DNA of 64,000 nt from the NCBI GenBank assembly GCA_019186965.1, contig JABARV010000002.1, positions 62,001 through 126,000 of the forward strand. The letters run 5' to 3'. The translations under genes were made by a program, and so were the position numbers. This document shows positions 26,302 through 64,000 of the stretch, piece by piece. The notes below the pieces were generated by a model that worked only from the letters and a program-made list of their open reading frames with translations, ran no database searches and had not been told where the DNA came from. Source of the stretch: Turneriella sp. (lineage in GTDB: Bacteria; Spirochaetota; Leptospiria; Turneriellales; Turneriellaceae). The first letter of the stretch is position 1; the number at the start of each line of letters is the position of its first letter.

Positions 26302-27543
26302 TTAAAGTGCGGTACCCGCAAAAATGAGCACACGTGTAACACCAATGCGTGGTGCTGTTGAGCCAGAAATCCTAATATAGTCTGTACCCGAGGCAAGAGC
26401 AGCTGCCGATGTCCACGGATTTGTTCCTGTTGTCTTGTGGAGAATCGCATTTCCGGTTGTAAGTGTCGAGCGATCGTTGCAATCTGCGCCACTAACATTA
26501 TGTGCCCAAAGCGTTGTGCGGGGGGGAGCGACATCCGCGCAGAGCGTGGTAGTCGATGCTTGGTAGTCAACAGTAGTTAGGGGGGCGCCGCTTGTTGATT
26601 CGCCGCTAAAGTCAAGGTATGTCCAGTTGGCGCTTGCGTGGTTCTTGCCGCCCGTTAGGACAAACCTTCCATCATCGGTTGTTGTGGCTCCATTGAAACC
26701 AGTTGTACGATTTGCCTCAAAGCCTGATGCGAGGTAAAAATACTTACTTGTTGCTGTACCTAACGCAGTACCATCGATATTCTCGATACGGAAGTGTTTG
26801 CCGTTTGTCGAACTTACCGAGCAGAGAGCTTGGTTTGCATTTTCGGCAGCACTTGTGACCATTGAAGAACAACCACTTACAGGAGTTGTCTTAAGTTCAA
26901 TCGTTGGTGTCGATGCTATAGACGCACTTGCATAGTAGTAATTTTTCTTGTTCGCTGCAATCGATGCATCCGCAGTGCCCCAGTTAAATTTTACAGCGAC
27001 AGCTCGGTTAAGAGTAAGGGTTGAATCGTCGCTACAGTCAGCAGAATTAACCCCCGTTACCCAATAAATAAACTGCGGTTGTGCTCCGCCGACGATATCA
27101 AAACAAACACTTTGCGCTCCGGCGGTGTATCCAGTGTTAGAAATCGTCCCCATGTTTGAACCAGATGTACCTCCGTAGTACATATTCGCCTGTGCAGCGG
27201 GAGCGGGTGTTCCACCACCATACCACTGGATGCGCATTTGGTTGGAGGCGATGGACGCTGGGTTGCTACCAGGGAACGAATCAAAGCCTAACGCAAGAGA
27301 CACAGAACTGTGGTCGCCTGAATTTGTCTTGAGACCAGTAATTTTGGCATGCCCTATTGCACCAGAAATCTTGCAGAGTTCGACTCCCGATGAAGCTCCA
27401 CCCGAAATCGTCTGGCTGCAAGTTGCTGGTAGTGAGGCCACCGAACTACTTGTACTTGCCACTTCTCCCCCTTGCGCACAGCCCAACGCGAAGAGCGCCA
27501 TAAGGGGCAGTACGCAAGCAATTTTTTTTACTAATTTTCTCAT
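26302..27543 (-). CDS. Fur-regulated lipoprotein with duplicated domain
   Basis: A signal peptide with lipobox ALGC directs lipidation at Cys22. The mature protein has two tandem units of about 185 residues, each closing with a related Cys-containing block: VNSADCSDDSTLTLNRAV in the first and VSGADCNDRSTLTTGNAI in the second. Paired cysteines (CSQ..ELC, then CSS..ALC) open each unit. No known domain was recognised. AAGGAG precedes the ATG, and a perfect 8-1-8 Fur palindrome lies about 37 bp upstream. It sits directly downstream of the haem receptor operon, so a surface iron or haem role is inferred. Confidence 0.8.
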   Translation of the reverse strand: MRKLVKKIACVLPLMALFALGCAQGGEVASTSSSVASLPATCSQTISGGASSGVELCKISGAIGHAKITGLKTNSGDHSSVSLALGFDSFPGSNPASIASNQMRIQWYGGGTPAPAAQANMYYGGTSGSNMGTISNTGYTAGAQSVCFDIVGGAQPQFIYWVTGVNSADCSDDSTLTLNRAVAVKFNWGTADASIAANKKNYYYASASIASTPTIELKTTPVSGCSSMVTSAAENANQALCSVSSTNGKHFRIENIDGTALGTATSKYFYLASGFEANRTTGFNGATTTDDGRFVLTGGKNHASANWTYLDFSGESTSGAPLTTVDYQASTTTLCADVAPPRTTLWAHNVSGADCNDRSTLTTGNAILHKTTGTNPWTSAAALASGTDYIRISGSTAPRIGVTRVLIFAGTAL

Positions 27544-27579
27544 TTTATTCTCCTTAAAATTTTTTAAATTTAGTAATCC

Positions 27580-27596
27580 ATAATGAGACTCATTAT
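27580..27596 (-). promoter_or_regulatory. Fur box upstream of the duplicated lipoprotein gene
   Basis: ATAATGAG-A-CTCATTAT is a perfect palindrome and extends on the minus strand as GATAATGAGTCTCATTAT. A -35 TTGATA overlaps it, with a possible -10 TTACTA 17 nt later, so Fur would sit in the promoter spacer. Confidence 0.85.
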
Positions 27597-27623
27597 CAAT
27601 AGCAAGGTAAAAAATCTTTATAG

Positions 27624-29735
27624 TTATCCCCCAAATGTGTACCGTAACCCGCCGTAGACGCGTAGTGGCGGCAGCGGTAAATACGCTGCATCGCCCGCCG
27701 AGTTTAAATTTTCCCCACCGGCAAAAATGCTCAGGCCGTTCAAGAAAGTGTATTCGCCGTTTACATCCACGGTCGCGTACGCCCGCGAATAAATTGGTGT
27801 TTGTGTGGGCGGTTTGCCTTCTTCATCCATGTAGTAAGGACGACGGTCGACGAGAGCGAGCATTGTGCGGAGCGTTAGTCCATGGTAACGAAATAAAAGA
27901 CCTAAATTTCCTCTATGACGCGCACGACCTTCCAGTTCGCGGTGGATTGAGTTATCCCAAGCGAATGTGTACGAATAGCCAAACGTCGCCCGAAGGTAGC
28001 GCATCAAATAGACCGTGAGGCGGTTGTCGGTGCCGGTTGTGAAAGCGTGCGCGACATTTTTATACGCGTACTGGGTGACGGTGCCAATGGTGCCAGCGGT
28101 CGCGGTTTGTATAAGGTTTGTGAGGTTGTTATAGTATGCGTTGCTGTCGATGGAAATGCGGCGTGTGGCATACCACTCGACACCCACGTTGACGCTCTGC
28201 GAGTTCTCGGGTTTCAGCGATGTGTTGCCGTGCACCGTGTACCCCGCCGATGGGTTGTCGAAATAAAGATAGAGTTCGCGGAAAGAGGGAGAGCGATACC
28301 CCATTCCAGCGCTCGCGCGTAGAATAAAATTCTCCGTGCCCCACTTTGCGCCAAAGCGCGGAGAAACGTAGTCGCCGAATTGTGAGTCTTTATCATAGCG
28401 GATGCCAGGGGAAATTATAAGTGCATCAAAAATTTTAGAATCGAACTGGGCATACCCCGCGACGCGGTGGCGGTTCTTTTTGTCGACGCCGATGCGCGGT
28501 GATTTCAAATCCTCAAAAATACCTTCCGAGCCTAAGGTCATCCGTCCCAATGAAAAAACAGGCAACGCGGTTTGAGCATGCAGTACATACGTGTTCTCGC
28601 GGGTGTCTTCGTAATTGTCGAGCGCGGTGTCGCCGCGTTGGTCGTACAGTAGTTGATCGCGGAACAAAGTGTAACTACCGTTGAGTTTGAAATCCGCTTT
28701 GCCTTTGTGCGACGAAAGCTCGTTGGCAAGTTTGTTGTCGTCGCGCGCCACCGAAACGCTTTCATTGGCCTTGGCGGCGCTTTGGGAGTGGTGCGTGTGC
28801 AACCGAAACGAACCTTGCGCTGTTTCGGTGAGATTGGTGCGATCGAAAATGCCGCCTGAAACAGGGGTGTCGATACCCCACATGCGCCGGCGGCTATAAT
28901 CGCCTTGCACGGCAAAACGCCAGCTGGGAGCAAACGCCCAGTCGACGCCCGAATCCACACCGTACTCGTTCACGCCTCTAGCCAATGTCGCTATCGAATT
29001 TTTATCGTAACGGTACGGTTGTTGCGTGCGGTACGCTCCCGAGCCGCGCACGAGAAAATCCCCCAGTGGGATTACCGCCGAACCCGAAAGATCGGCTGCG
29101 CCTAAATTGCCTCCCTGTAGTTTAGCATCGATGAGTGGTTTTTTCGGGCGCACTGTGATGATATTCACTACTCCAGCGATAGCGTCGGAGCCGTAAATTG
29201 CCGACGAAGAGCCGCGCACAATTTCGATTTGTTCGACGTTGTCGACACGCAAGCGGCTGGTGTCGTATTGCCCGTTGATACGGCCGTTCAGACGTTCGCC
29301 GTCTTTCATGATTAACAGGTACTGAGAGTCGAGGCCTTGTAGTTGCACGTTGTCGCCGAAAAGTCCGCGCTGGATAAAAAAGCCGGTTTCATTGTTGAGT
29401 GCCTCGGTGACGGTGCGCGCGCCTTTCTCGCGGATTTGTTCTTTGTCAATCACCTCGACTTGCACCACCGAATCGGCGAGACGGCTTTCGCTGCGCTGCG
29501 CGGAGAGCACCACTTTCCGGCGGCGGTTGAGTTTTTCGATATATTCCGCTTCTTGCGTTGCGCTATCTACTTTTGTGCCGTTAGTCCCACTGGCTATGGT
29601 TTTACCATTGTCGTTTACGTATGCCTTTTTCTCTGGAGAGGCTGTATCCTCTGCGTAGAGAGTGCAATATAGACCGAGAATCATTATCGGGATAACTATC
29701 CCTATTAGCTTTTTCTGGTGTCGTCGGATTGGCAT
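27624..29735 (-). CDS. hmuR: TonB-dependent outer-membrane receptor, HmuR-like
   Basis: This is a 703-residue outer-membrane gated porin for haem or another iron source. After a hydrophobic signal segment (IVIPIMILGLYCTLYA), the plug domain begins near RRKVVLSAQRSESRLADSVVQVEVIDKEQIREKGARTVTEAL. It contains VDNVEQIEIVRGSSSAIYGSDAIAGVVNIIT. The barrel follows, with SAGMGYRSPSFRELYLYF and LKPENSQSVNVGVEWY, and the last strand ends LRYTFGG, so it is complete. Association with a HmuY-like lipoprotein supports haem. It is the last gene of the predicted operon 32012 to 27624. Confidence 0.9.
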   Translation of the reverse strand: MPIRRHQKKLIGIVIPIMILGLYCTLYAEDTASPEKKAYVNDNGKTIASGTNGTKVDSATQEAEYIEKLNRRRKVVLSAQRSESRLADSVVQVEVIDKEQIREKGARTVTEALNNETGFFIQRGLFGDNVQLQGLDSQYLLIMKDGERLNGRINGQYDTSRLRVDNVEQIEIVRGSSSAIYGSDAIAGVVNIITVRPKKPLIDAKLQGGNLGAADLSGSAVIPLGDFLVRGSGAYRTQQPYRYDKNSIATLARGVNEYGVDSGVDWAFAPSWRFAVQGDYSRRRMWGIDTPVSGGIFDRTNLTETAQGSFRLHTHHSQSAAKANESVSVARDDNKLANELSSHKGKADFKLNGSYTLFRDQLLYDQRGDTALDNYEDTRENTYVLHAQTALPVFSLGRMTLGSEGIFEDLKSPRIGVDKKNRHRVAGYAQFDSKIFDALIISPGIRYDKDSQFGDYVSPRFGAKWGTENFILRASAGMGYRSPSFRELYLYFDNPSAGYTVHGNTSLKPENSQSVNVGVEWYATRRISIDSNAYYNNLTNLIQTATAGTIGTVTQYAYKNVAHAFTTGTDNRLTVYLMRYLRATFGYSYTFAWDNSIHRELEGRARHRGNLGLLFRYHGLTLRTMLALVDRRPYYMDEEGKPPTQTPIYSRAYATVDVNGEYTFLNGLSIFAGGENLNSAGDAAYLPLPPLRVYGGLRYTFGG
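29674..29690 (-). promoter_or_regulatory. Fur-box-like sequence inside the start of hmuR
   Basis: CCGATAATGATTCTCGG on the minus strand resembles one arm of the Fur consensus (GATAATGAT) and is nearly symmetrical. It lies in coding sequence directly beside the GGGATA-AC-TATCCC hairpin, so it may be chance or an internal operator. Confidence 0.3.
29689..29702. repeat. GGGATA-AC-TATCCC hairpin inside hmuR
   Basis: Six-bp perfect arms with the TAACTA apex, identical to the hairpin of unit 4 in the array before eno (15182-15195). It encodes part of the signal peptide (GIVIP). Confidence 0.7.
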
Positions 29736-29783
29736 TTTATTTTAGTTATTACAGAATAATGGATTGAATACTCGTGTAGTTTG

Positions 29784-30467
29784 TTATGGAGGCGTAACCT
29801 CTGCCCACTGGAAGCGGAATTTAGCGGCGGTGCCGGTTTCGCTGTAATACGTTTTGATTTGTATTTTGTAATACTTATTTGCATACGTCTTTAAAACATA
29901 CGTCATGTCGCGCACAGTTAAGTGTCCGATTGAATACGAAAACCAACACGCGTTCGGCGTTGCGGTAGAATTTAAGAAAGCAAAAAGTACTCCCGCAGTT
30001 GTTGGGCGGCAAGCGTCGCCGCCATCGCCGGCATCCACAACGTCCGTGGTCGCAGGCACAAAGGGCGAAGGGGCTTGGGCGCGTGCGGTAAAGTTGTCTG
30101 CATTCAACGCGACCACTTGAACATTTGCATTCCCCGATGCACCGCCGTTGACTTTAATCATAAAGCGCTCAAACGCAATGTCCCAATCGTTGTTTGACAA
30201 AGGATCGGCAACGGTTATGCCGCTGGGATTTTCAAAATCAAAATACACCCAAGCGCTGTTAGAGGTGGCGTCGAGATTGGTTTCATAAAGTCCACCCCCC
30301 AGGCTTACGGTAGAGGTTGAGACAACCGCAGTGCCACCCGGTGGCTTTCCGGCAAAACCTTCGGCGGTTAATAGAGTGTCGGCGCAGGCAATTTGCAGTA
30401 AGCTTACGAGAAAAACTGCCACCAAAGGAAGTCGATAACCGCGTTTATTTTGATTTTTCTTTTGCAC
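29784..30467 (-). CDS. hmuY: HmuY-like haem-binding lipoprotein
   Basis: This is a 227-residue exported protein with a signal peptide ending LLQIACAD (lipobox-like QIAC). The middle carries SAWVYFDFENPSGITVADPLSNNDWDIAFERFMIKVNGG. The end carries TYVLKTYANKYYKIQIKTYY..KFRFQWAEV. Both stretches are typical of HmuY, the Bacteroidetes haem-binding lipoprotein that delivers haem to HmuR. It lies upstream of the TonB receptor on the same strand. In some HmuY proteins the haem ligands are His or Met; here they cannot be assigned by eye. Confidence 0.82.
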   Translation of the reverse strand: MQKKNQNKRGYRLPLVAVFLVSLLQIACADTLLTAEGFAGKPPGGTAVVSTSTVSLGGGLYETNLDATSNSAWVYFDFENPSGITVADPLSNNDWDIAFERFMIKVNGGASGNANVQVVALNADNFTARAQAPSPFVPATTDVVDAGDGGDACRPTTAGVLFAFLNSTATPNACWFSYSIGHLTVRDMTYVLKTYANKYYKIQIKTYYSETGTAAKFRFQWAEVTPP

Positions 30468-30491
30468 TGTTGTCCTCTGTCCTATCTTAAT

Positions 30492-31073
30492 CTAAGTGAG
30501 TAAATAGAAGAGCGTTACCGCACCTGCCGGTAAAAGCAGCCCCGCAGCCATGTACCATTTTCCTCCGCGCAGCGGTCCGTTTTTTCCCTGTGGGATTAAA
30601 AGACCGGTCAACGCAATGAGGATAAGCGCCACTGCAAAAATATCCGAAATCCATTTCCAGCCTTTGAGCGAATTGCGGTGTAGCACGTTGGCTTCATAAA
30701 AGACGTGGCGTTTGCGCAGGCTTTCATACTCTCCCTTGCCAGAGGCAAGATAAATGTGTAGCGTGGCGTTGTCGTAGTAGAGTTTAATTTGGTCGTCGGT
30801 GGGGTAATCGACAGTCTTGTGCTTTTCCTCACCGACAAGCGCACTGTAAGAGAGCAGCGTGGCTTCGTCTGCTTTATAGCCTGCTGCTTGGGGTTGCACG
30901 GTTATATTTTTTTTAGCGATCACAAAGTCGGGGTTCCAATCGTCGACGTGGTTGAGCGCAATCCCTGAAATCGAATACGCAATGATAAGCCCCAAGAAGA
31001 AATACCCCAAGTCGCGGTGGATGACCCGCGACGCTTTGGTTATTTTTTGTTTCCCGTTTTTACCTTCGGACAT
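30492..31073 (-). CDS. PepSY-associated transmembrane protein
   Basis: A 193-residue inner-membrane protein with helices near residues 22-44, 138-158 and 170-190. It has a periplasmic stretch between the first two. The start KASRVIHRDLGYFFLGLIIAYSISGIALNH and the later VLHRNSLKGWKWISDIFAVALILIALTGLLI match the PepSY-associated TM helix family. That family often accompanies siderophore and haem receptors and is thought to act in reduction or release of metal in the periplasm. The conserved histidines (H19, H38, H131) could bind haem. It lies between hmuY and the chelatase gene, so it is part of the same operon. Confidence 0.8.
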   Translation of the reverse strand: MSEGKNGKQKITKASRVIHRDLGYFFLGLIIAYSISGIALNHVDDWNPDFVIAKKNITVQPQAAGYKADEATLLSYSALVGEEKHKTVDYPTDDQIKLYYDNATLHIYLASGKGEYESLRKRHVFYEANVLHRNSLKGWKWISDIFAVALILIALTGLLIPQGKNGPLRGGKWYMAAGLLLPAGAVTLFYLLT

Positions 31074-31103
31074 AAATCTCTCTTAAACAGTGAATACCGT
31101 TTG

Positions 31104-32012
31104 TTATAGTTTTTGCACGTACTGGCGTGAAATTTTCACCACCCAATCTTCGAGGCCTTTGTCGGGCAAAATCGAGTCGGGTTTATAGACAACGTCGTAC
31201 CCCGCTTTCCTTGCTTTCTCGACGCCTTGGGGGATAATTTTACCTTGGAACATTTCATCGACAGCGACGAGTACCGGCACAACCAAAGCGCGTTTGCCTT
31301 TCTTCGCAACTTTTTCAATCGCTTCGGTTGTTTTCGATGGGTTATAATGGACTAAGTGGCCGCACCAACCGTGTGAATAATCTTGGATACCTAAATTTTT
31401 ACGCACGCTGGCACCCATATTGTCGAAAAGTTTATTCCATTCGTTTTCATATTTTTCATCGCCGTATGCAATCATCACCAACGCTTCTTTCGATTTATCT
31501 TTAGAGAGCGCCTTAACGCGGCGGATTAAGTTTTTTTCGAGAATGTCGGTAAAATCCAGGAGAGGGGTAATAACAACTTTTGCTTTGGGGGTATAGCGCT
31601 CAATTTTTTCAAGACGCATCGCCTCGCGCGATTCGGGATTATTTTTTTGGCCGATGATTGTTGGTATGTCGTCAAAAGGGTGCGGGCTGACGGTTAAGAA
31701 AATAGGTACAAGGACGACGTCGGTAAAACCTTCGGCGTCAAATTCCTTCATGCGTGTGGCGATCGACGGCTCGGTGTATTCCATGAACGCGGTGCGCACG
31801 TCGGCGAAATGCTTTTCTGCGAGAATTTTCGGGCGTACATTTTTCTCAAGTTGCATGAGCGATGCGCGCCATGCCGCCGAGCGTGAACCGTGGTTTACGA
31901 GGAGCAAGCCGATTTTCTTTTTTGCCGTGGTTTTTCTGGGCACTGTGGGGGTAACGATTACCGCCACAAATGCAACGAGTGAAATCAAAAAGCGAGTGTG
32001 AATCCTTATCAT
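31104..32012 (-). CDS. Exported CbiX/CbiK-type (class II) tetrapyrrole chelatase
   Basis: This is a 302-residue protein of the sirohydrochlorin chelatase fold. GLLLVNHGSRSAAWRASL is the active-site start with the metal-binding His, and VLVPIFLTVSPHPFDDIP is the second segment. The C-terminal half repeats the fold (LVMIAYGDEKYENEW, and VVPVLVAVDEMFQGKIIPQGVEKA). A hydrophobic N-terminus (MIRIHTRFLISLVAFVAVIVTPTVP) suggests export, as described for periplasmic CbiK of Desulfovibrio. It heads the operon with PepSY, HmuY and HmuR genes, so insertion or removal of metal from imported tetrapyrroles is inferred. The ATG lies in the Fur site; a TTG at codon 9 is an alternative start. Confidence 0.8.
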   Translation of the reverse strand: MIRIHTRFLISLVAFVAVIVTPTVPRKTTAKKKIGLLLVNHGSRSAAWRASLMQLEKNVRPKILAEKHFADVRTAFMEYTEPSIATRMKEFDAEGFTDVVLVPIFLTVSPHPFDDIPTIIGQKNNPESREAMRLEKIERYTPKAKVVITPLLDFTDILEKNLIRRVKALSKDKSKEALVMIAYGDEKYENEWNKLFDNMGASVRKNLGIQDYSHGWCGHLVHYNPSKTTEAIEKVAKKGKRALVVPVLVAVDEMFQGKIIPQGVEKARKAGYDVVYKPDSILPDKGLEDWVVKISRQYVQKL

Positions 32013-32037
32013 AATTGAGACTCATTCTCATTATCAA
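32012..32037 (-). promoter_or_regulatory. Fur operator and promoter of the haem operon
   Basis: On the minus strand GATAATGAGAATGAGTCTCA gives overlapping Fur half-sites. A -35 TTGATA at its edge is followed after 18 nt by TATGAT, which includes the annotated ATG. The same ATTGATAATGAG string begins the Fur promoter of the duplicated lipoprotein. Confidence 0.78.
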
Positions 32038-35848: not shown

Positions 35849-37087
35849 TTATTGGAAAAATTGCAAGAGTAAGGGGGGAAGTGGGGCCTCAACGGTAACT
35901 TCGCGGCCTTCGTGTGGATGGCGGAATGTAAGGCGGTGTGCGTGCAACATAAGGCGTGGCGCTTTAACGCGACCATAAGTTCTATCGCCAACAACGGGCA
36001 TGCCGTATTCGGCGAGGTGTACGCGCAACTGGTGCGTGCGGCCAGTAACAGGTTCGCAGCGCACGAGCGCATAATTATTTTTAACTTGCAAAATTTCAAA
36101 ACGGCTATACGCGAATGAACCTTCTTCGGTAGATTTAGTGGACCGGTATATGTTTTTCTTACGTACAGCGCGTTCTAGCTGGTTTTTAATTTCCCATTTT
36201 TGGCCCAAAGTGGGATTTCCCCCTGTGCAGACGGCAAGATATTCTTTTTGGATTAAACTTTCTTGAAAGAGCCGTGACGCAAACGGATTCATTTCTTCTT
36301 TTGTGGTAAACAAGACGAGACCCGATGTCGGCGCGTCGAGCCGGTGGTGAATTCCTAAGTACATGGAGGTATTTGGTCGCGCCGCAACAGGAGGTTGCTC
36401 CGTGTCGCGACCAATGTACATGGACGTACTTGGTCGCGCCGCAACAGGAGGTTGCTCCGTGTCGCGACCAATGTACATGGCCGACGACAAAGAAGGCATC
36501 CTGCCTGTCGTCGGCTCTGGGCCTCCATGCCCTTGAGCCAACGACAAAGAAGGCATCCTGCCTGTCGTCGGCTCTGGGCCTCCATGCCCTTGAGCCAACG
36601 ACAAAGAAGGCATCCTGCCTGTCGCCGGCTCTGGGCCTCCATGCCCTTGAGCCGACGACAAAGAAGGCATCCTGCCCGTCGTCGGCTCTGGGCGTCCGTG
36701 CCTGCGAGAAAAATATTTCTTGAGCTCTTCGACCAAATTGTCGCGTGCGTTGTCTAATGTCGCCACCGTGGGTAATCCGGCTGGCTTATTTACGATAAGA
36801 ATGCCGTCTTCGTGGTAAAGTATGCATTTCGGGTCGAAGTGTCCATTTACTTCGCGCGGTACCACGTTCTGCGGATGGTATTCAATCCTAAGTTCGTTAC
36901 CCGACCACACCGGCTTCGAGGCGATGCGGCAGCGCTTGCCATTCAAATATACTGCACCCACCATGATGAGCTTCCGCACTTCGGCTTTCGAGATGCCGTT
37001 TGCGATTTTTTTGTTTAAGAGCGCGTGTGCTGTGTGGTCGAAACGCTGCTTGTGCAGTTCGGTTGGGATTTTGAATTTGTACGTCAA
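35849..37087 (-). CDS. rluA: RluA-family pseudouridine synthase with repeat insert
   Basis: This enzyme isomerises uridine to pseudouridine in rRNA or tRNA. An S4-like N-terminus (GISKAEVRKLIMVGAVYLNGKR) is followed by ILIVNKPAGLPTV. The catalytic HHRLDAPTSGLVLF then comes, with the aspartate around residue 247, and the C-terminal EPVTGRTHQLRVHLAEYG. Residues 127-242 are an insert of six 19-residue units (four of GHGGPEPTTGRMPSLSLAQ type, two of MYIGRDTEQPPVAARPSTS type), each coded by 57 bp. Without them the length is about 296, normal for RluA. The exact RNA target is unknown, and the insert could form a flexible loop without harming the fold. Confidence 0.88.
   Translation of the reverse strand: MTYKFKIPTELHKQRFDHTAHALLNKKIANGISKAEVRKLIMVGAVYLNGKRCRIASKPVWSGNELRIEYHPQNVVPREVNGHFDPKCILYHEDGILIVNKPAGLPTVATLDNARDNLVEELKKYFSRRHGRPEPTTGRMPSLSSAQGHGGPEPATGRMPSLSLAQGHGGPEPTTGRMPSLSLAQGHGGPEPTTGRMPSLSSAMYIGRDTEQPPVAARPSTSMYIGRDTEQPPVAARPNTSMYLGIHHRLDAPTSGLVLFTTKEEMNPFASRLFQESLIQKEYLAVCTGGNPTLGQKWEIKNQLERAVRKKNIYRSTKSTEEGSFAYSRFEILQVKNNYALVRCEPVTGRTHQLRVHLAEYGMPVVGDRTYGRVKAPRLMLHAHRLTFRHPHEGREVTVEAPLPPLLLQFFQ
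36360..36473. repeat. Two 57-bp palindromic units (type A) inside rluA
   Basis: Copies start at 36360 and 36417; TACATGG recurs at 36474. Each holds a stem with TTGGTCGCG / CGCGACCAA arms (9 bp; 36373-36381 with 36406-36414 in copy 1) around an inner GCAAC/GTTGC stem. A second small stem GTAC..GTAC follows. The period of 57 keeps the reading frame. Confidence 0.88.
36481..36708. repeat. Four 57-bp palindromic units (type B) inside rluA
   Basis: Copies start at 36481, 36538, 36595 and 36652. Each has 9-bp arms CCGACGACA / TGTCGTCGG (36481-36489 with 36506-36514 in copy 1). It also has a second stem with GGGC/GCCC and CTC/GAG. The copies differ by a few bases: copy 3 has CGCCGG for CGTCGG, and copy 4 is degenerate at its end. 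The sequence is different from type A, but the length and the two-stem layout are the same. Confidence 0.88.
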
Positions 37088-61978: not shown

Positions 61979-62119
61979 ATGGACTATTTGATAGTTATTC
62001 TCATTCTCTTTGCGGCGGCTATCTATCTTTACTTGCGTTTTCGCGGCAAAGTGAAGTCCTCCTGCGAGCAGTGCAACCAGTCGATGGTGTCGCGTGCAAA
62101 ATGGAATGTGCATGGGTAA
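61979..62119 (+). CDS. 46-residue CXXC membrane protein at the head of the feo operon
   Basis: The short frame reads MDYLIVILILFAAAIYLYLR, a single membrane helix, then a cytoplasmic basic segment with SSCEQCNQS (a CXXC pair). It ends with a short tail. In many bacteria a small Cys-containing membrane protein (FeoC-like or 'FeoB-associated Cys-rich membrane protein') lies next to feoAB. This one has only two cysteines, so the match is by size, topology and location. A Fur-like site lies within its first codons. Confidence 0.7.
   Translation: MDYLIVILILFAAAIYLYLRFRGKVKSSCEQCNQSMVSRAKWNVHG
61990..62008 (+). promoter_or_regulatory. Fur-like box inside the first codons of the feo operon
   Basis: The reverse complement GAGAATGAGAATAACTATC matches 15-16 of 19 positions of the Fur consensus (GATAATGATAATCATTATC or its GAG variant). 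It starts about 12 nt after the predicted start of transcription, a location usable for repression. Confidence 0.55.
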
Positions 62120-62172: not shown

Positions 62173-62421
62173 ATGGTGCGCAAAAAAGAGAAAATCCCAC
62201 TTTTAGAACGTTCGTTGAGTACGCTTGCGCTCGGCGAAAGTGGCGTCGTGGTACGCACTCCCACCCAAAACGAACGCCTTGCTGAAATCGGGATTGTCAA
62301 AGGCGAAAAGGTAACCCTTGTCCAAGTGGCGCCTTTGGGAGATCCCGTTGTGGTAGAAGTGTTGGATACGCCGATTATCTTGCGCCGTTCTGATTTAGCC
62401 GAGGTAATGGTGCACACATGA
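62173..62421 (+). CDS. feoA: Ferrous iron transport accessory protein FeoA
   Basis: This is an 82-residue SH3-like cytosolic partner of FeoB. SLSTLALGESGVVVRTPTQNERLAEIGIVKGEKVTLVQVAPLGDPVVVEVLDTPIILRRSDLAEVMV fits the FeoA domain (GxxxRLxxLGxxxGxxVxxVxxxPxGDPxxxxxxGxxxxLRxxEA). Its stop overlaps the feoB start (ATGA), which implies coupling. No ribosome-binding site is visible; the palindrome takes its place. Confidence 0.92.
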   Translation: MVRKKEKIPLLERSLSTLALGESGVVVRTPTQNERLAEIGIVKGEKVTLVQVAPLGDPVVVEVLDTPIILRRSDLAEVMVHT

Positions 62422-64000
62422 AAATAAAAATTGCGCTCGCGGGAAATCCCAACGCAGGTAAGACGACGGTCTTCAACGCGCTTTGCGGTGCGCGGCAACG
62501 CACCGGCAACTTTGCGGGTGTCACCGTGGAAAAAAAATCTGGCACGTTAAAAGAACATTCAGAAATTGAAATCCTCGACGTACCGGGAACGTACAGCCTT
62601 AAAGCAAAGTCAACCGACGAAACCATCGCGGCGAACGTGCTTACCGGCAATTACGCGGGTGAAACAAAACCTGATATTGTTTTGGTGATTATCGACGCCT
62701 CGAACCTCAAGCGCTCGCTCTATTTAGTCGGCCAGCTCCAAGAGTTGGGCGTGCCGATGTTGGGCGCAGTTACAATGACTGACATCGCGGCGCGGCGGGG
62801 ATTGACTCTCGACATCCAAAAACTCGAACACGCATTGGGATTTCCTCTGTGCGAAGTGACAAAGGCCACGGGGGATCAAATTGCAGCGCTCACCCAAAAG
62901 ATTGTGACGAGTGCATCTTCTAAAACTATTTCGCAATCGAGTATAAGAAGAAATCATGCTAAAAAAGCAACACGCCCTCGATTCACCAACGACGCCAACG
63001 AAATGGAGGTGCGTTACCGTACCATCGATGCCATACTCAAAAAAGTAATCATAAAAGCATTGCGCCCACCCACGTCAATCACCGCGCGCATTGATCGTGT
63101 CTTGACACACCGCCTCTTTGGGCTTTTTGCATTTACAGTCATCATCGGCAGCGTATTTTTTAGCATCTACGCCGGTGCACAGCCGATGATGGACGGCATC
63201 GACGGCACGATGAAAATGTTTGGCGGTTGGGTGCGTTCGGGTCTTAGTAGTTATCCCGTGACCGCATCGCTCATCGCCGACGGTATGATTGCCGGCGCAG
63301 GGTCGGTCATCGTCTTTTTGCCGCAAATTATGATTTTATTCTTCTTTATATCTGTGCTTGAAGAGACGGGGTATATGGCGCGTGCGGCGTTTATGGTCGA
63401 TAAACTTTTGGGTTGGACTGGCCTCAATGGGCGCTCGTTTATTCCGCTCCTTTCGAGTTTTGCGTGCGCCATCCCTGGGATTTTGTCTGCGCGTGCGATG
63501 CCCAATGGCCGTGCGCGGATGGCAACAATTCTTGTTGCTCCGCTCATGTCGTGCTCGGCGCGGCTGCCGGTGTATGTTCTTTTTATCGGTGCGTTCATCG
63601 AGCCGCGTGCGGGGGCACTCTGGGCGGCGGTGGCGCTCTTTGGGATGCACCTTGTGGGCATCGTTGTCGCGCTGCCTTTAGCTTACTTACTCAACCGCAA
63701 AGTCTTGAAGGCAGGCGAAGGTACGTTTATGCTCGAGCTACCCGAATACCGCCTGCCGCACTGGCCCAATGTGTTCCGCCGTGTGTACGACGCGGGGAGT
63801 GATTTTATTAAAACCGTGGGGACGATTGTCTTTGCACTCTCGGTTGTAATTTGGGCGCTCGTTTATTTTCCGCACAGCGAAAAGACGTATAACAAAGAGC
63901 TATCTACCTTTGCGCAAAGTCTGCAACTCAACTCGGCGTCGCTCACTAAAATCTTAAACAAAGAAAAACCCACAGAGAAAGAAGAAGCCATCAAGACCGA
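62418..64000 (+). CDS. feoB: Ferrous iron transporter FeoB (3' truncated by window)
   Basis: This is a G-protein-coupled inner-membrane iron(II) permease. The N-terminal GTPase domain carries AGNPNAGKTTVFNAL (G1), TGNFAGVTVEKKSG, DVPGTYSL (G3) and TMTD (G4). A charged spacer leads to the membrane domain. That domain begins with RIDRVLTHRLFGLFAFTVI and contains two gate repeats with conserved Cys: LLSSFACAIPGILSARAM and APLMSCSARLPVYVLFIG. About 527 residues are present, and the reading frame is open at the end. The gene is GC-rich. Confidence 0.95.
   Translation, partial: MKIKIALAGNPNAGKTTVFNALCGARQRTGNFAGVTVEKKSGTLKEHSEIEILDVPGTYSLKAKSTDETIAANVLTGNYAGETKPDIVLVIIDASNLKRSLYLVGQLQELGVPMLGAVTMTDIAARRGLTLDIQKLEHALGFPLCEVTKATGDQIAALTQKIVTSASSKTISQSSIRRNHAKKATRPRFTNDANEMEVRYRTIDAILKKVIIKALRPPTSITARIDRVLTHRLFGLFAFTVIIGSVFFSIYAGAQPMMDGIDGTMKMFGGWVRSGLSSYPVTASLIADGMIAGAGSVIVFLPQIMILFFFISVLEETGYMARAAFMVDKLLGWTGLNGRSFIPLLSSFACAIPGILSARAMPNGRARMATILVAPLMSCSARLPVYVLFIGAFIEPRAGALWAAVALFGMHLVGIVVALPLAYLLNRKVLKAGEGTFMLELPEYRLPHWPNVFRRVYDAGSDFIKTVGTIVFALSVVIWALVYFPHSEKTYNKELSTFAQSLQLNSASLTKILNKEKPTEKEEAIKT

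Follow-up and report, generated by a model that had tools for sequence, protein, structure and literature searches.

The locus described here probably encodes a periplasmic, iron-regulated system for removing iron from haem, by means of a small PepSY membrane protein and a chelatase running in reverse, with the resulting Fe2+ passing to FeoB. It lies in a 64,000-nucleotide stretch of a Turneriella sp. genome (the window; contig JABARV010000002.1). The initial annotation of the locus had proposed uptake of haem or another metallo-tetrapyrrole, with the metal exchanged or released outside the cytoplasm. This proposal is supported by a gene order that recurs in several phyla, by a link between export of the chelatase and presence of a redox partner, and by the replacement of an importer, all of them read from sequence.

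Four minus-strand genes are arranged in the order chelatase, PepSY, HmuY and TonB receptor, with intergenic gaps of 30, 24 and 48 bases, and terminator-like sites within this unit were not above the level in shuffled sequence. The products are an exported class II tetrapyrrole chelatase of CbiX/SirB type (31104–32012, 302 aa; Pfam CbiX, 1.8e-15), a PepSY_TM_like_2 inner-membrane protein (30492–31073, 193 aa; Pfam PF16357, 6e-15), a HmuY-family haem-binding-type lipoprotein with a GTG start (29784–30467, 227 aa; Pfam HmuY, 1.5e-19) and a TonB-dependent outer-membrane receptor (27624–29735, 703 aa; Pfam Plug, 3.9e-22, and barrel, 3.1e-36). The reading frames, strand and families are thus as first annotated, and so is the Fur-like operator in front, which overlaps the promoter/start region of the chelatase gene (32017–32035, minus strand; 15/19 to the E. 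coli consensus GATAATGATAATCATTATC). Together with the highest-scoring site of the window (27579–27597, minus strand; 16/19), it makes up the two best Fur-like sites in front of genes, and scores of 15 or more were absent from 10 Markov shuffles. A third match, at 61990, lies within a short reading frame before feoA and was therefore not counted. Fur-like boxes are also found 5′ of the chelatase gene in relatives (17/19 in L071, 15/19 in L079 and 13/19 in L005), and the window's genome (G000) has three Fur homologues. Since the box at 27579–27597 precedes the gene for a 413-aa lipoprotein (26302–27543, minus strand), the unit reaches to 26302; the four genes were placed correctly in the initial annotation, but this fifth gene with its own box had been left out. 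The lipoprotein has no Pfam or NCBIfam match and is conserved in relatives, its homologues lying beside the HmuY and receptor genes in three genomes (G156, G193 and G040) and near them in two more (G148 and G172). Genes for FeoA and FeoB occupy 62173–63998 on the plus strand (FeoB_C, 2.5e-15), FeoB running past the window end.

The established activity of class II chelatases in the CbiX/SirB family is metal insertion. Both its sequence and its predicted fold assign the window chelatase to this type and not to the CbiK type: it scores 57.5 bits against Pfam CbiX (cut-off 22), whereas its PF06180 score of 20.3 bits is below the cut-off of 26.2 and the profile of its family reaches CbiK structure 2xvx with E = 2.4. 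Of the 'CbiX/CbiK-type' label given earlier, the first half stands and the second falls. The score against the NCBIfam CfbA equivalog was 62.1 bits, under the cut-off of 120. In profile searches, solved CfbA (2.4e-13), CbiX and SirB chains were matched, and CbiK was marginal. The AF2 model (pLDDT 90) has a SirB-like predicted fold, with SirB as the best Foldseek match (E = 1.9e-8; TM 0.73, by target), followed by ferrochelatases, periplasmic CbiK and Porphyromonas gingivalis FetB (PDB 9b86). Residues H41, E78 and H111 of the N lobe are invariant in 82/82 sequences and line up with the catalytic residues of CfbA and SirB. The C lobe has no second active-site set and instead carries a lineage-specific invariant W216-C217-G218-H219, possibly an extra ligand site, although this role is a guess. 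Export, as annotated, is visible at the N-terminus, where a hydrophobic region (ISLVAFVAVIV; mean hydropathy 3.2) follows positive residues and a signal peptide is predicted over about residues 1–30; in relatives, signal peptides or lipoboxes are clear, with lipoboxes in the G137 orthologue and many others. The chelatase is single copy in the window's genome (3.08 Mb, 99% complete), and its signal peptide and uptake-locus context do not fit a cytosolic role in siroheme, cobalamin or F430 biosynthesis.

Relatives of the chelatase were sought in one genome per species from 84,980 species. This yielded 132 confirmed relatives, and 80 of them were retained. Adding two loci from the window's class (L005 and L006) and removing a duplicate of L006 (L052) gave 81 loci, and as the L071 contig ends at the chelatase, 80 were usable for the downstream partner. 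The relatives are mainly from Bacteroidota, Nitrospira, Chlorobi, Verrucomicrobia and Gammaproteobacteria, with single MAGs of other phyla; on plasmids, the chelatase was found in Persicobacter only and the PepSY gene not at all. A PepSY gene lies directly 3′ of the chelatase gene in 66 of the 80 usable loci (63 from ORF calls, and L022, L023 and L059 by tblastn), the two mostly overlapping slightly or lying <20 bases apart. Because the same adjacency is seen in 66 loci, each fetched separately, the arrangement is not due to chance; within the window's class, the chelatase and PepSY profiles match in the identical 3 of 48 genomes. Two other candidates were set aside: the L004 match, a CbiX of cobalamin type that lies in a cobalamin locus, was not counted, and the genes for 1117–1143 aa proteins 3′ of PepSY in L009, L024 and L035 are CobN-sized but resemble aminoacyl-tRNA synthetases in sequence and are unrelated.

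In a further 11 of the 80 loci the PepSY slot holds an unrelated protein of 470–490 aa with FMN_bind and Fer4_5 (4Fe-4S) domains, found in the four such proteins scanned. All 11 carry the ApbE flavinylation motif D-A-[VI]-SGAT; the loci form one fully supported clade, and in L074 the protein is fused to the receptor. One slot is thus occupied by either of two electron carriers that are unrelated to each other. The only loci with no partner, L031, L046 and L062, belong to one clade, and the same three chelatases have no signal peptide. The low Fisher p makes this link between export and partner look stronger than it is, as the clade represents a single evolutionary event; the loss nevertheless fits, since a non-exported chelatase needs no outward electron donor.

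The presence of a PepSY neighbour, already annotated, can now be refined to a likely electron supply. The protein scores 56.2 bits against PF16357 (cut-off 27) and has three transmembrane helices (3–41, 139–158 and 171–192, in agreement with hydropathy), the first two of which flank a periplasmic beta domain. Three histidines are strongly conserved (H19 in 65/67, H42 in 66/67 and H132 in 67/67 sequences). The topology would place H19 at the cytoplasmic end of the first helix, H42 at its periplasmic end and H132 in the periplasm before the second helix. H42 and H132 could bind a haem on the periplasmic side; H19, on our own inference, might do so together with its counterpart in a partner chain. 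Three-helix PepSY-like proteins of PF16357 have been proposed as transmembrane electron carriers linked to iron (PMC8238504), and the FoxB structure is that of a di-haem reductase with two bis-His haems (PMC10979944, PMC13038864). The window protein resembles FoxB, FhuB/FsrB, VciB and CrpH in having a periplasmic PepSY domain between transmembrane helices and conserved histidines on both faces, but is half their size, with three helices, is linked to a chelatase and has haem as its probable substrate. A FoxB-like fold is not confirmed, because the AF2 monomer gave no significant PDB match in Foldseek. From these sequence features, the protein is a probable transmembrane haem-b electron-transfer partner of the chelatase.

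The lipoprotein scores 71.1 bits against Pfam HmuY (cut-off 27) and matches PDB entries 8b6a (1.1e-12) and HmuY 3h8t (1e-4). No conserved His/Met ligand pair was found in the HmuY proteins, in which ligand residues vary family-wide. The receptor matches generic TonB receptor domains (plug 79.2 and barrel 126.6 bits) and scores 130.8 bits against NCBIfam TonB-hemin, under the cut-off of 316.85. A regular expression for a receptor substrate motif matched just 7 of 53 receptors and is thus uninformative on the substrate. Of the 81 loci, 35 have HmuY close to the chelatase, 53 have a TonB receptor nearby, and 26 have neither among the genes examined. The 16 HmuY proteins sampled all match Pfam HmuY and are often longer, with a double domain.

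Locally, the most telling evidence is provided by relatives that lack the chelatase but have the same partners. In G193 (L113, same genus) and G156 (L112, same family), genes for a periplasmic binding protein, a FecCD permease and the ATPase of an ABC transporter precede those for HmuY, the receptor and the lipoprotein. The window's HmuY, receptor and lipoprotein have orthologues at these loci (HmuY 46–51% and receptor 44–56% identity, the receptor 55.5% in L113), far above other matches, and the window carries chelatase and PepSY exactly where the relatives have this HmuT-U-V-type ABC importer. Judged by gene order, the chelatase–PepSY pair thus replaces the importer in the same slot. The relatives' system brings the ligand in, with cytoplasmic degradation where haem oxygenase is present, whereas in the window system the iron would be stripped outside. 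Haem oxygenase adjoins HmuY in four class members (L115, L116, L117 and L119), and in G137 it adjoins a HmuY on another contig from the chelatase. Neither a HmuT homologue nor haem oxygenase was found in the window's genome or in G090, and in G137 any HmuT-like match is weak at best; among the chosen genomes the mutual exclusion of HmuT and chelatase is statistically weak (p about 0.06). The initial annotation had the chelatase taking the place of HmuS. This is borne out in that HmuS is absent from the locus and CobN from the genome (no CobN-Mg_chel match over the cut-off; the sole match was an 18.5-bit fragment full of stops), but the local slot is that of the HmuTUV-type importer. The genome does have FeoB and the ferrochelatase HemH, and with its own ferrochelatase it probably makes haem. 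In L124, from another family of the phylum, HmuY and receptor adjoin CobN-like and radical SAM genes, with an exported CbiK nearby. Importer, haem oxygenase, CobN-like/CbiK and chelatase contexts together indicate that HmuY is coupled, within a single phylum, to three or more ways of handling the ligand.

We therefore favour the following scheme, in which substrate, direction of reaction, electron path and exit route are all provisional. The HmuY-type lipoprotein and TonB receptor would bring haem across the outer membrane; PepSY, as a small transmembrane cytochrome, would pass electrons outward and reduce the ferric haem; the exported chelatase, acting in reverse, would release Fe2+; and this would be imported through FeoB, the porphyrin being left outside or recycled. 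Demetallation by HmuS needs haem in the reduced state, with NADH as the electron source (PMC12583661). Cytosolic NADH is out of reach for an enzyme in the periplasm. A dedicated donor spanning the membrane would thus be expected, and with two unrelated donors in one slot, electron supply to the chelatase is the most economical reading.

An exported chelatase might instead insert or exchange a metal (Mn, Co or Fe) in porphyrins that are taken up or demetallated outside, a role put forward for P. gingivalis FetB, with PepSY serving general metal reduction. Insertion is a known activity of family members, FetB is among the structural matches (PDB 9b86), and FetB-dependent Mn-PPIX has been reported (reviewed in PMC13402209). 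We consider this rather unlikely, since insertion of a divalent metal needs no obligate electron-transfer partner, and the Fur boxes, FeoB and the lack of HmuTUV-type importer and haem oxygenase fit iron release better.

The other two readings change the substrate or the activity. HmuY and receptor could bind a different tetrapyrrole of iron or cobalt, or else an iron-siderophore, the chelatase then being a metal-binding protein beside a ferri-siderophore reductase; the best solved matches of the receptor are Cir, PhuR and BtuB, its scores are below haem-receptor cut-offs, and reduction of ferrisiderophores is an activity of PepSY proteins such as FoxB (PMC13038864). However, the invariant tetrapyrrole-chelatase active site, the 35 loci with HmuY near the chelatase and the haem oxygenase genes adjoining HmuY in L115–L117 and L119 make this unlikely. 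A moonlighting or inactive chelatase that holds haem for reduction or transfer would suit a C lobe with an invariant WCGH in place of a second active-site set, but binding alone does not demand the N-lobe His-Glu-His that is invariant in 82 sequences, and we regard it as quite improbable. Iron release from haem, with electrons supplied by PepSY, remains the reading that we prefer.

Several known systems resemble parts of this scheme. The Bacteroidota HmuYRSTUV system (PMC12583661) likewise has HmuY, a TonB receptor and iron removal by a membrane-associated chelatase that needs reduced haem, but HmuS is a 1469-residue, NADH-using, class I CobN-like protein, whereas the window has a 302-aa class II exported enzyme and a separate electron partner. 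P. gingivalis Iht shares an exported class II chelatase lipoprotein (IhtB/FetB; PDB 9b86), a TonB receptor and proposed removal of haem iron (PMC10913741). IhtB, reported as not regulated by PgFur (PMC10913741), is however CbiK-type, is missed by the window-family profile, and comes with its own ABC transporter and no PepSY. The class II chelatase CbiK of Desulfovibrio vulgaris (PDB 2xvx) is likewise periplasmic and has a similar fold (Foldseek 2.3e-6) but belongs to the CbiK family. The sirohydrochlorin chelatases SirB, CbiX and CfbA share the fold and N-lobe active site but are cytosolic biosynthetic enzymes, while the window chelatase is exported, in a Fur-box context and an uptake locus. 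Thus, exported chelatases for haem iron had been proposed (IhtB) and haem de-chelation shown (HmuS). In the open-access literature, we found no work that connects a chelatase of CbiX type to PepSY or HmuY.

The results suggest that this chelatase family, which is not known for such a use, serves many bacteria in releasing iron from haem outside the cell interior. We put at about even the chances that this is a widespread haem-iron route, in which an exported, biosynthetic-type class II chelatase works in reverse and its donor is swapped between a haem-based PepSY and a flavin/iron–sulphur module. The question bears on the ways in which haem iron is obtained by anaerobes and by environmental bacteria that have no haem oxygenase. 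HmuS is the best-shown anaerobic de-chelatase, and the operon type described here, present in several phyla, offers a second solution: a small soluble chelatase of a well-studied family with a separable donor, which makes the chemistry accessible with two purified proteins. It would also assign a function to sets of PepSY_TM_like_2 and FMN_bind/Fer4_5 proteins. In Turneriella, the locus shows haem uptake in which extraction in the periplasm appears to have replaced import.

In three Persicobacter genomes, the gene that follows the chelatase is a single frame of 1211-1223 aa (L091, 8896-12567; L092, 8959-12594; L074, 9896-13567), in which an FMN_bind/Fer4_5 electron-transfer protein is joined to a TonB receptor. 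The domain scan covers the L074 frame only, and two of the three replicons that carry the fused frame are complete plasmids. The electron-transfer and receptor parts are separated by a signal-peptide-like segment; the frame may encode a polyprotein that is cleaved by signal peptidase.

Five Chlorobi loci (L056, L059, L064, L066 and L068) have a second chelatase-like ORF after, or overlapping, the PepSY position, and some of these ORFs may be gene-caller artefacts. The chelatases of L031, L046 and L062, found in Chloroflexota and Ignavibacteriales bins, form one clade of the family; they have no signal peptide and the redox partner is likewise absent.

In the window itself, the 413-aa lipoprotein (26302-27543) belongs to no known family and has its own Fur-like box. 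Its relatives within the class adjoin HmuY, and some are about half as long. Elsewhere in the window, a pseudouridine-synthase-like gene (35849-37087) contains 57-bp tandem repeats in two arrays, both of them in frame (36354-36467 and 36480-36702).

Other arrangements were seen among the fetched loci. In Runella, a gene for a Fur-family-like regulator lies directly upstream of the chelatase in L023 (8312-8863) and also in L027. In L124 (110-13491), HmuY-receptor genes adjoin CobN-like and radical SAM genes, with a lipoprotein CbiK some genes beyond; this is a further haem arrangement within the phylum of the window. HmuY is absent from the Nitrospira loci L016, L028, L048 and L057, where the receptor is preceded by a gene for a small secreted protein whose C-terminus is a PEP-CTERM-like tail; this protein may be a replacement for HmuY.
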